From positions 124,001-188,000 of the IMG/VR virus record IMGVR_UViG_3300050821_009835: DNA of 64,000 bases. One strand, given 5' to 3'. Under the pieces are notes generated by a model. It saw only the letters and a program-made list of their open reading frames with translations, made no database searches and was not told the origin of the DNA. This document shows, in pieces, positions 45,994 through 50,812 of this stretch; positions within the stretch are counted from its first letter, which is position 1; each line of letters begins with the position of its first letter. Source of the stretch: a virus. Position numbers and translations under genes: made by a program.

Positions 45994-46800
45994 TCAATCG
46001 TAGAGTCTCCAAAGTTTTTCTACTGGCAACCCAGTTACCGAAGCCACTTCTGAAAACGTGGGCTGCAATTCTTTTTCAAAAAGAAATTGTACTTGAGGAC
46101 ATTGCTGCTGCTTAGCACTCGTTCTTGCAGAAGGCCAGCCCTTGATTTCTACCAAATTTCCATCTACTAAAAAATCCGGGTAGAAATTGTATCGCACTCC
46201 CTCAAACTCGTAAGATAATGGCCGCCAATTTCTTTCTACTTTCTTTCCTAGCTGCAACGAATGAATGAGATAGGCACATTCCCAGGTGGACTGTACAAAC
46301 ATACCATGGTAGTATCCTGATTTACTACGGCCTCCACCTTCCCGTATTCCACCGCAGCGACCTTCAGCCTTTGCTTTGGCTAAACCTTCTTCATTGTGCA
46401 ATTTTCTACACGAAAGACAAACTGTCCAATTCCTAGGTATTTCTTGCCCACAAGCACAACGTTTAGGAGGCTTAGGAGGTAATAAAGAAACCCTATCATG
46501 GTGAGCCTGAGATATCCTTCTGCGAGTTGTTAACAAACACGGTCTTGTATTCGAACAAGACACAGAACAAGTTAACCCCTTACGTCTAGAAAATTGTTTT
46601 GGGGTGCATTCCAACAAAAACTGCTTTCCACAAACAACGCACTGAACCGGGTAAAGAACCTTTCGTTTGTTTTTCTTTGCCACTGCCAAATTCAAGGCTA
46701 CTCTGTCTGGACGTTTGAAGCAATTACGTATGTGCGCTCCCCAACTTCGCCCATCCTTAGGAAATCCTTCCCTACTTAGTCCACAGTACTGACAAGTCAT
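45994..46800 (-). CDS. Homing endonuclease (PD-(D/E)XK type), copy 1
   Basis: This 268-residue protein has an N-terminal zinc module (CQYCGLSREGF), more CxxC pairs, and a C-terminal nuclease: SGYYHGMFVQSTWECAYL, then YNFYPDFLVDGNLVEIKGW with the PD and ExK residues. It is related to the protein at 47914-48579. Both sit inside tRNA cluster 2, so homing into tRNA genes or nearby RNA genes is likely. Confidence 0.75.
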   Translation of the reverse strand: MTCQYCGLSREGFPKDGRSWGAHIRNCFKRPDRVALNLAVAKKNKRKVLYPVQCVVCGKQFLLECTPKQFSRRKGLTCSVSCSNTRPCLLTTRRRISQAHHDRVSLLPPKPPKRCACGQEIPRNWTVCLSCRKLHNEEGLAKAKAEGRCGGIREGGGRSKSGYYHGMFVQSTWECAYLIHSLQLGKKVERNWRPLSYEFEGVRYNFYPDFLVDGNLVEIKGWPSARTSAKQQQCPQVQFLFEKELQPTFSEVASVTGLPVEKLWRLYD

Positions 46801-46942: not shown

Positions 46943-46951
46943 AAAACATTC

Positions 46952-47325
46952 GCGCTGAACCTATAGCCAGGATTTTGTCGTGGACGACCATTCCTCTAGG
47001 CCACCCGTTACCGTGTGGCTCAAGCTCTCTACCCGCTGATTCCCCACTTCTTACGAAGTGAACGGGCCGGATCAGCCCTGCTCAGCCTATTTGAGATTGC
47101 TCCACGTGGAGATTGCCCGTTTCACCCTATGCTATGGCTGCGAGCCCCTCCCGCATTTAATCCCCAGTCGAGGGAACCAAGTCACAGACTCGTCTCTGTT
47201 GCTCTAATCGTCATTACGCCTTTCAGCGTAACGCTAGGGAGTTACCCTACACGCCATCCTGTGGAGTCCTGAACTTCCTCGGTAAGCAATTCCATCCTGC
47301 TTAACGCGATCGTCCAGTTCAACGC
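46952..47325 (-). ncRNA. rnpB: RNase P RNA (bacterial type)
   Basis: The minus strand carries the universal RNase P RNA blocks in order: AGGAAGTTCAGGACTCCACA near the 5' end, AGGGTGAAACGG, GTGGAGCAATCTCAAATAGG, GGGTAGAGAGCTTGAGCC, and GGCCTAGAGGAATGGTCGTC followed by CCACGACA near the 3' end. A P1 stem pairs GCGTTGAAC (5') with GTTCAGCGC (3'), defining about 374 bases. It is flanked by tRNA genes on both sides. RNase P removes 5' leaders from tRNA precursors, so a phage copy fits an array of 28 tRNA genes. The P3 region is shortened. A protein partner is not seen in this window. Confidence 0.95.
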
Positions 47326-47604: not shown

Positions 47605-47680
47605 TGGTGGAGCTAGTCGGGTTTGAACCGACGGCCTCTTTCATGCCATGAAAGCGATCTCCCAACTGATCTATAGCCCC
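47605..47680 (-). tRNA. tRNA-Ala (GGC)
   Basis: The acceptor GGGGCTA/TAGCTCC, D stem GATC/GATC, anticodon stem CTTTC/GAAAG with loop ATGGCAT, T stem GTCGG/CCGAC and encoded CCA fit. Confidence 0.88.
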
Positions 47681-47744
47681 AAACTCGAGGGGTCTCGGGG
47701 ATTTCACGAAACGTTCCAGCCGTCGCTGTCTATCCCAGACCCTG
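47681..47744 (-). ncRNA. Conserved three-way-junction trailer, copy A
   Basis: This 64-base block is nearly identical to 50312-50374. On the minus strand GGGTCT-GGGAT pairs with ATCCC-AGACC, enclosing a CAGC-GACG-GCTG hairpin and a short ACG/CGT hairpin, so a three-way junction can be drawn. It forms the 3' part of permuted tRNA precursor A. Function unknown; it may be a ribozyme, protein-binding or processing element. Confidence 0.65.
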
Positions 47745-47858
47745 AAAGCCCTAACGTGCACCTACTGGGACTCTGCTCTGCCGCTGAGCTACACCCCTGT
47801 CGGGATGGTTGGATTCGAACCAACGACCTGAGTCCGATCGATGCACAGGCTTTCGAAA
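47681..47858 (-). ncRNA. Circularly permuted tRNA precursor A
   Basis: The region is bounded exactly by tRNA-Cys upstream and tRNA-Ala downstream, giving 178 bases. In transcription order it holds a tRNA 3' half (anticodon-stem strand GGACTC, AGGTC, T arm GTTGG/CCAAC with TTCGAAT, acceptor CATCCC) directly followed by a 5' half (GGGGTG, D arm GCTC/GAGC, anticodon-stem strand GAGTCC). GAGTCC pairs with GGACTC and GGGGTG pairs with CATCCC with one wobble. The flanks pair further: GTGCA/TGCAC and GAAAGCC/GGCTTTC (47744-47750 with 47848-47854). After the 5' half comes a conserved structured trailer. The anticodon cannot be fixed without the joining rule; no CCA is encoded. Confidence 0.8.
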
Positions 47859-47937
47859 TGGAGATGAAGGCAGGATTTGAACCTGCGATTACAGAGGTTG
47901 CAGCTCTGCCCCTTTAGCCAGACTTGGGTACTTCATC
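47859..47937 (-). tRNA. tRNA-Cys (GCA)
   Basis: The acceptor GATGAAG/CTTCATC, anticodon stem CAGAG/CTCTG with loop CTGCAAC, T stem GCAGG/CCTGC, discriminator T and encoded CCA fit. Its 5' part overlaps the read-through end of the homing endonuclease gene. Confidence 0.88.
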
Positions 47938-48579
47938 ATAAAGTCGTACGAAATCTTGTCCGTACTTGCCAGAAACATGATCCAAAATACCCTGCATCTG
48001 TTCCCACATTAGAAGATGAATCTTCCTGCTTCCAACGGCATCCAGTTTTCTCTACAAGATATCCTTGTCCACTACAAAACCCTTAATCTCTACTAAACTC
48101 CCATCCGCCAACTTGAAATCCGGTGTGTAGAAATGAACCACTTCATTACGGTCTAAGTAACCGAATCTTTCCCGATTTCTTTCAAAAGGAACACCGTGTT
48201 CCAATTGATAAATTACCCAAGCAAGTTCCCAAGAAGAGTCGCACCAAATTCCTTGATATCGGCCTTTAATGCCTCGCCCACCTCCCTGGTTGCCCAATCC
48301 TAATCGCTTCCTAGTATCACCAATCTTTTTCTTAGTTTCTTCGGACGGCGGTCCTGCTTTACTCCCGGTTCTAGCCCTTGCTGCTGCTTCTACTAAAGCC
48401 CGAACCTTTTCGTTTTCTATAGTCAACCCCTTATTCCAAGGTATCGTGCGTTCAGCTGGCTTAAAACTTACTCCTTTGCCATGCATCCTCCAAATGTGAC
48501 TTGTTAAGCCAAATAAGGACATTTCTTTCCGGCAAATAAAACAGCAAACAAAACCACCCTTAGAGCCTGTTGTTGGCAT
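47914..48579 (-). CDS. Homing endonuclease (PD-(D/E)XK type), copy 2, with in-frame TAG
   Basis: The N-terminus has a zinc motif (VCCFICRKEM ... HIWRMH), a basic NUMOD-like centre, and a nuclease core (GIWCDSSWELAWVIYQLEHG; FYTPDFKLADGSLVEIKGF). After VVDKDIL comes TAG at 48052-48054, but the frame stays open for 45 more codons (including MWEQMQGILDHVSGKYGQDF and VRLYDE) to a TAA inside tRNA-Cys. The extension matches the C-terminal RLYD of copy 1, so it is genuine coding sequence. Amber suppression, decay or an error is possible. Confidence 0.7.
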
Positions 48580-49791: not shown

Positions 49792-50311
49792 GACAGCAGC
49801 GTGTCCGAATACCGCGTTGCTCTGCGTTCACAGACTTCGATTCCGACTCGCACCTGACCTCCGGGTAACTTCCCTCATAGTACTCAGAAAGTACAGAAAA
49901 TACAAAAGTACAGAAAATACAAAAGTACAGAAAATACATCGGCTACAGTAACCCTGCACGTTGAACTATTGCCAGTTAGACTTCGGGACGTTGCCACCGT
50001 CGCACCTATGATGCTTCGGGTTATGCGGGTCATGACTCCCGTGGCAGTGGGTTTTAGCCCTAACCAACCGTGCACAGTATGCAGCCGAATCTTAAGCCTT
50101 AGAAGAACGCGGCGGGAAACTTCCTAGGCAAGTCCCGCCGCATCTCTATCCGTTTCTCCGCCAGGACTGCGCGAGTACTCGGGCTGCTCGTTGCGCGTAT
50201 ACTCAGCGCGATTACCTCTGGATGACCGCTCTGGTGGTCCTGCGTTGCTCTTCGTTACTAGCTGTTAGGCCTCACGGGTGCTGCCCGCTCTGGTCCTCCT
50301 GCGCTTCATCC
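49792..50311 (-). other. Spacer downstream of permuted tRNA B
   Basis: About 520 bases hold a GCGGCGGGA/TCCCGCCGC hairpin (50109-50141), the 17-bp tandem repeats and GC-rich inverted repeats, but no supported gene. It may be the 3' part of a long transcript carrying permuted tRNA B. Confidence 0.35.
49887..49937. repeat. Three tandem 17-bp repeats
   Basis: Three units of AAAAGTACAGAAAATAC (first unit with one change) lie head to tail. There are no spacers, so this is not a CRISPR array. It may be an expandable or regulatory element. Confidence 0.85.
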
Positions 50312-50374
50312 AAACTCGAGAGGTCTAGGGGATTTCACGATAGTTCCAGCCGTCGCTGTCTATCCCAGACCCTG
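50312..50374 (-). ncRNA. Conserved three-way-junction trailer, copy B
   Basis: Sixty-three bases, differing from copy A (47681-47744) at about five positions, while the tRNA bodies they follow differ strongly. The same GGTCT/AGACC and GGGAT/ATCCC stems and CAGC-GACG-GCTG hairpin are kept. Confidence 0.65.
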
Positions 50375-50488
50375 GAGCTGTCAACGCATCGTCTACTGAG
50401 GTCTGCTCTTCCATTGCGCTACATCCCCTTAACGGAGAAGGAGGGAATCGAACCCCCGACCTGACCTTATCGACGATACTCTGCTCCA
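50312..50488 (-). ncRNA. Circularly permuted tRNA precursor B
   Basis: The same arrangement as at 47681-47858. In transcription order: flank, anticodon-stem 3' strand AGGTC, AGGTC, T arm GGGGG/CCCTC with TTCGATT, acceptor CTTCTCC and G; a 4-base linker; then GGGGATG, D arm, and anticodon-stem 5' strand GACCT, then trailer. GACCT pairs with AGGTC; the acceptor pairs at six of seven positions. Flanks pair as GACGAT/ATCGTC (50388-50393 with 50472-50477) and TGGAGC/GCTCCA (50373-50378 with 50483-50488). The helices have other sequences than in copy A but the same positions, which is covariation. Confidence 0.8.
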
Positions 50489-50812
50489 AACTTATGAAGC
50501 GATTCCTGTTGGTACTTGGTAGCTATCGAGTCTACCCTAAGCACGAATCGACCAAACCAACGCGATACCACACGGCAATCTTTGCTGCTGGCTCCCATGA
50601 TTAACGACCTTTGGGTATTAGTATCCGGAACGGTCGTCTTACATAACCTTGACGGTCGTCTTACATAACCTTGACGGATCTGCCAGCAATTCTTTGCGAG
50701 GTAGGCAATGCATTTGTACAGCCAACCAGTCCTCGACTTCTGAGCTTCGTAGTCATCCGAAGACGCTTACCGTTTCCGGCCTGTCTCCGGTTCACTCACT
50801 CAGCTTCTATGT
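50489..50812 (-). ncRNA. Non-coding leader region, candidate structured RNA
   Basis: About 320 bases between a GTATC motif (50816-50821) and permuted tRNA B hold no supported gene. They contain a 22-bp direct duplication and several inverted repeats (for example CCGGAGACAGGCCGG). A transcript starting near 50811 would carry this region and then the permuted tRNA. Confidence 0.4.
50631..50674. repeat. 22-bp tandem duplication
   Basis: The unit CGGTCGTCTTACATAACCTTGA minus its last two bases is shown here as CGGTCGTCTTACATAACCTT; two exact 22-bp copies follow one another. Confidence 0.85.

Follow-up and report, generated by a model that had tools for sequence, protein, structure and literature searches.

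In animals as well as in bacteria, Y RNAs act as partners of Ro60, and the purpose of their tRNA mimicry is still poorly understood. YrlA (Y RNA-like) RNAs are 90–150 nt long and consist of a large stem that joins their 5′ and 3′ ends and a domain that resembles the D, T and acceptor arms of a tRNA; the stem holds Ro60 (Rsr), while the tRNA-like domain holds PNPase and is modified by DusA and TruB (PMC8394870). Earlier papers mention phages that have Ro60-like proteins and YrlA (PMC7765460, PMC7824862), and YrlA has been proposed to act as a decoy against an anticodon nuclease (PMC7790460). A second point of reference is the permuted tRNA genes of algae and archaea, which are defined by a bulge-helix-bulge (BHB) motif and have intervening sequences of 1–74 nt (PMC3978253). 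The literature that we searched yielded no permuted tRNAs from phages.

Here, we describe two permuted, base-paired elements, copies A and B, on the minus strand of a 64,000-nt stretch of DNA (the window) that belongs to a virus record of 264,912 bp. The first-pass annotation had read copy A as a circularly permuted tRNA gene of a type not known in phages. As regards the architecture, the latter statement fails, since phages have been reported to carry YrlA (PMC7765460).

Arrangement and structure of copies A and B

Copy A occupies 178 nt (47681–47858) and is bounded exactly by two ordinary tRNAs, as had been claimed: tRNA-Cys(gca) directly upstream (47859–47937) and tRNA-Ala(ggc) directly downstream (47605–47680), both on the minus strand, adjoin it with zero gap. 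Read 5′ to 3′ on that strand, the element indeed follows the order 3′ half, short linker, 5′ half. The outer strand GAAAGCC (47854–47848) and the inner strand GTGCA (47846–47842) are succeeded by an internal-loop strand, TCGATC (47841–47836), and by the tRNA 3′ piece (47798–47835), comprising the anticodon-like strand GGACTC (47835–47830), the variable stretch AGGTC, the T arm, the acceptor strand CATCCC (47807–47802) and the linker GACA. The tRNA 5′ piece (47768–47797) then contributes the acceptor strand GGGGTG (47797–47792), the D arm and GAGTCC (47773–47768), after which come a CAGTAG loop strand, TGCAC (47760–47756), GTTAG and GGCTTTC (47750–47744), together spanning 47744–47767, and a 63-base 3′ end. 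All pairings proposed beforehand, namely those of the anticodon stem, the acceptor and the two flank helices (outer, GAAAGCC/GGCTTTC; inner, GTGCA/TGCAC), are present, and RNAfold returns exactly such a fold. T arm and D arm are normal, the acceptor stem has 6 bp and is thus one pair short, and the linker that joins its strands encodes no CCA, though the neighboring tRNAs do. The basal stem, made up of the outer and inner helices, extends directly from the anticodon stem in the tRNA-like head. Because it does so, and because the acceptor is closed by a short loop, the head comprises T arm, D arm and acceptor in permuted order, without an anticodon.

Element A is real and not a product of chance. 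Its RNAfold energy of −71.6 kcal/mol (z −3.29) was equaled by none of 200 shuffles, and its flank duplex has −18.5 kcal/mol as compared to −9.2 ± 2.4 kcal/mol in shuffles, 5 of 5,000 of which reach this value. When a permuted-tRNA detector was run on 40 shuffled windows, it returned 11 matches, only one of them with a 5-bp anticodon stem, versus two such elements in the real window.

The second, strongly diverged copy, B, lies at 50312–50490 (minus strand), has the same arrangement and lacks flanking tRNAs. With the helix register placed by hand, 13 of the 31 helix pairs are changed on both sides between A and B and still paired, two are changed on one side, 14 are unchanged and two are broken in B. 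Copy B has one mismatch in the D stem and one in the acceptor (7 positions), and the energy of its flank duplex is reached by 108 of 5,000 shuffles. The compensatory pairs, the flank energies that beat those of shuffles and the rarity of the arrangement in shuffled windows together demonstrate that the structure of A and B is real and maintained.

Both copies end in a separate 3′ domain of 63–65 nt (47681–47743 in A, 50312–50374 in B; minus strand), which is almost unchanged between them (95% identity, as compared to 50% for the tRNA-like part and flanks). No relatives of this domain were found in viral contigs, genome contigs, phages or plasmids, and its folding energy is unremarkable (z −0.9 and −1.3), so that its fold stays unproven. 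The string AGTTTGG recurs on the minus strand at 50486–50492, 50310–50316 and 47679–47685, overlapping the start of B, the 3′ end of B and the 3′ end of A, respectively, and is possibly a processing or boundary signal.

The phage tRNA array additionally contains a full-length RNase P RNA of bacterial class A (RF00010, 170.3 bits; 46948–47325, minus strand), separated from copy A by a few hundred bases, and two endonuclease-like genes (45994–46800 and 48052–48579, minus strand), which may be mobile. Elsewhere in the window, a gene for an amino acid:DNA transferase (PF18724; 59293–60525, plus strand) suggests that the phage DNA is hypermodified. A search for relatives of the phage via its DnaB-like helicase found none.

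YrlA and the permuted RNAs of other phages

Searched at a relaxed threshold, the Rfam YrlA model (RF02553) aligned end to end to both A (47742–47853; 44.6 bits, E-value 5.4e-8 in 3 kb and 1.1e-9 in the record) and B (50371–50487; 30.6 bits, E-value 5.9e-4). Neither score reaches the curated gathering score of 69 bits; the tandem tRNAs of the same record score 13.9 bits at most with this model. Both copies have permuted D, T and acceptor arms in their tRNA-like domain as well as a large basal stem formed by the paired 5′ and 3′ ends, and the published description of YrlA fits them feature by feature (PMC8394870).

To find permuted tRNA-like RNAs in other phages, viral contigs were scanned with two patterns, namely a T loop followed by a D arm and a recurrent GTTACTTC motif, yielding ~60 stand-alone permuted tRNA-like genes. 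TROVE/Ro60 was encoded in 27 of the 32 viral contigs with such RNAs, as compared to 1 of 32 control contigs that were caught by the same first pattern but held tandem tRNAs only. In all 16 contigs with both RNA and Ro60 in the fetched stretch, the distance between them (to the middle of the gene) was 0.76–1.74 kb. The YrlA model aligned end to end to permuted RNAs of other phages as well (35–48 bits). An alignment of 27 such RNAs revealed covariation in the outer helix, inner helix, acceptor and T stem, with both-side changes in 24 of 30 pairs, and a covariance model of Ro60-linked phage Y RNAs built from it (R1) scored further members at 50–108 bits. Ro60 co-occurrence, closeness, covariation and R1 matches thus identify permuted tRNA-like genes in phages, as a rule, as Y RNAs.

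Phage Y RNAs are widespread; judging by the yield of a few pattern scans, mostly from Ro60-encoding contigs, phages seem to be a rich reservoir of such RNAs. They are unannotated in the two named phages checked: the finished genomes of Caulobacter phage CcrPW and Streptomyces phage Moab contain permuted RNAs outside annotated features with TROVE nearby. CcrPW (L290; MH588545, ~115.9–117.1 kb) has an unannotated array of at least four permuted tRNA-like RNAs beside the TROVE gene gp146c, labeled ‘hypothetical’. Permuted tRNA-like RNAs whose 5′ flank carries a CAGCAA motif form a second group, seen at L034, L060, L087 and L091; TROVE was absent from the three contigs of this group that were tested (20, 164.7 and 234.9 kb).

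Joining nt 28 of the 5′ piece to nt 29 of the 3′ piece gives a complete 5-bp anticodon arm in 30 of the 54 GTTACTTC-class RNAs (at L045, L115, L163, L180 and L242, for example). All 30 arms have U33 and a purine at position 37, and 17 different anticodons are represented. ARAGORN called a tRNA for 34 of 34 reconstructions, a set that includes re-fetched loci and one contrived case; five of the 34 carry Ser or Leu anticodons on type-I bodies, and some have A34. The idea that the arm-bearing Ro60-linked RNAs are decoding tRNAs was put aside in view of these Ser/Leu anticodons, the A34 cases and the location beside Ro60. Based on the Ser/Leu anticodons and the location, we tentatively read these RNAs as mimics of whole tRNAs. 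That many phage Y RNAs retain a complete anticodon arm speaks for their putative origin by tRNA-gene permutation.

A possible Ro60 partner and rival readings

As judged from sequence and predicted fold, A and B are shown to be related by architecture to the Ro60-linked phage RNAs. They are atypical, with no Ro60 found in the record, stems unlike the Ro60-linked model and a tail found nowhere else. R1 aligns to copy A in the tRNA-like core alone (positions 47–116, 40 bits), leaving the stem unaligned, and to B weakly (32.7 bits); as ordinary tandem tRNAs can reach 39.5–47.5 bits with R1, its match alone does not make A a member. A TROVE/Ro60 gene was found in the 264.9-kb record neither with Pfam nor with a profile of 20 phage Ro60 sequences, the latter run without a positive control; the record is possibly incomplete, and the partner could be the host's. 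As a lead only, we took the Ro60-site motif to be G-N-C-G-A-A. The form G-N-C-G-N-A is absent from the 5′ flanks of A and B, though within the Ro60-linked class, too, strict matches are few (11 of 62 RNAs).

A search for RNAs resembling A and B, in which CAGTA or CAGTAG follows the D arm, returned few permuted cases (L254, L261, L259 and L325). A separate CAGTAG class was not established, because L254 and L325 resemble Ro60-class RNAs. In L261, two canonical Y RNAs adjoin the Ro60 gene (88.9 and 68.3 bits with R1), whereas the CAGTAG-type permuted RNA, which like A matches R1 in its core only, lies in another part of the contig, outside a 14-kb stretch that surrounds this gene.

We consider it very probable that A and B are tRNA mimics rather than decoding tRNAs. 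That they are phage Y RNA-like RNAs of YrlA architecture in the full sense, with a Ro60 partner, has in our view slightly better than an even chance. According to this Y RNA reading, copy A would be cut from a tRNA precursor by the ordinary processing of its two neighbors. Such release of a 178-nt RNA is plausible and would apply to A only, since B has no tRNA neighbors. The released RNA may serve as a tRNA-shaped tether or decoy, with its head recognized by proteins that bind the tRNA elbow (PNPase, DusA and TruB in known Y RNAs) and its basal stem held by a protein, the likeliest candidate being Ro60/Rsr of the host or encoded outside the record. The 3′ domain would have a separate role as an additional module, special to this phage, that binds protein or RNA.

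Alternatively, A and B could be Ro60-independent tRNA mimics of the same lineage, with stem and 3′ domain binding a different phage or host protein, which we hold to be possible though unlikely. The failure to find Ro60 in 264.9 kb, the unmatched Ro60-type stem, the conservation of the unique 3′ domain far above that of the tRNA-like part (95% versus 50%) and the L261 case of a core-only RNA away from Ro60, with canonical Y RNAs beside it, all point this way; however, an incomplete record or the host may account for the missing Ro60, and the reading comes without a named partner. On this reading the RNAs would serve for decoy or regulation, perhaps directed at a nuclease that targets tRNAs: decoy action has been proposed for YrlA (PMC7790460), but A and B have no anticodon loop with which to bait an anticodon nuclease. 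We entertain only tentatively that A and B represent a branch of permuted tRNA mimics that left Ro60 behind and whose stem and 3′ domain serve another partner; were this true, the phage would produce, by processing, an RNA of tRNA shape that functions independently of the Ro60 system.

The remaining readings fare worse. The location in a tRNA array and the two broken pairs in B would suit a functionless relic of an array rearrangement that left the 3′ half of one tRNA beside the 5′ half of another, yet halves of two different tRNAs would not pair, whereas here acceptor, anticodon stems and flanks pair in two copies of 50% identity with 13 compensatory pairs, making a relic improbable. Still harder to sustain is a genuine circularly permuted tRNA gene, the transcript of which would be circularized and then cut to a decoding tRNA. 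Of the first-pass reading, the order and the paired flanks stand, and together with the acceptor and anticodon-stem pairing they fit such a gene, examples of which, with 1–74 nt of intervening sequence, exist in algae and archaea (PMC3978253). What is not supported is the assignment to that algal and archaeal kind. Joining the halves at any point to form a 7-base loop never combined U33 with a purine at 37 (none with U33 in A; two with U33 in B, then without the purine), so no usable anticodon loop results; a strict BHB motif is absent from A and B, and neither a tRNA-splicing endonuclease nor an RtcB ligase was found in the phage record. The short acceptor of A, the D-stem and acceptor mismatches of B and a linker without CCA, unlike the neighboring tRNAs, likewise argue against it. 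A permuted tmRNA or tmRNA-derived RNA is the least credible of all. Two-piece tmRNA genes are similar in order, and weak partial matches to the permuted tmRNA and tmRNA models occur near B, but their 15–16 bits are far below the gathering score of 47, the window holds no above-threshold tmRNA match, and the elements have a full tRNA-type D stem and no recognized tag reading frame.

A pair of copies in a phage without detectable Ro60 would offer a way to ask what the tRNA-like head does alone.

Comparison with known systems

Like A and B, two-piece tmRNAs encode the 3′ part of their tRNA-like domain ahead of the 5′ part, but A and B have a true D stem, no recognized tag coding region and no above-threshold match. 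With the permuted tRNA genes of algae and archaea (PMC3978253), they share the leading 3′ half, a short intervening sequence and a paired leader and trailer; they differ in having neither BHB motif, splicing endonuclease nor usable anticodon loop. The Ro60-linked phage Y RNAs (such as those of L200, L209, L163, CcrPW and Moab) have the same permuted head and long flank helices. Where A and B have TCGAT / CAGTAG, most of these carry GTTACTTC together with a distal loop that is conserved (about GNGCGNAG / CTTGTTCTC), and unlike A and B they often have a full anticodon arm and lie beside Ro60. Relative to YrlA (RF02553), A and B stay below the cut-off score, have no recognizable Ro60-site motif or detected Ro60 gene and carry the extra 63–65-nt 3′ domain, and copy A is located within a tRNA array, not next to rsr. 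They nonetheless share with YrlA the permuted head, in the order T arm, acceptor, loop, acceptor, D arm, and the long basal stem built from the two ends, and once its tail is left off, copy A has a similar length of ~112 nt.
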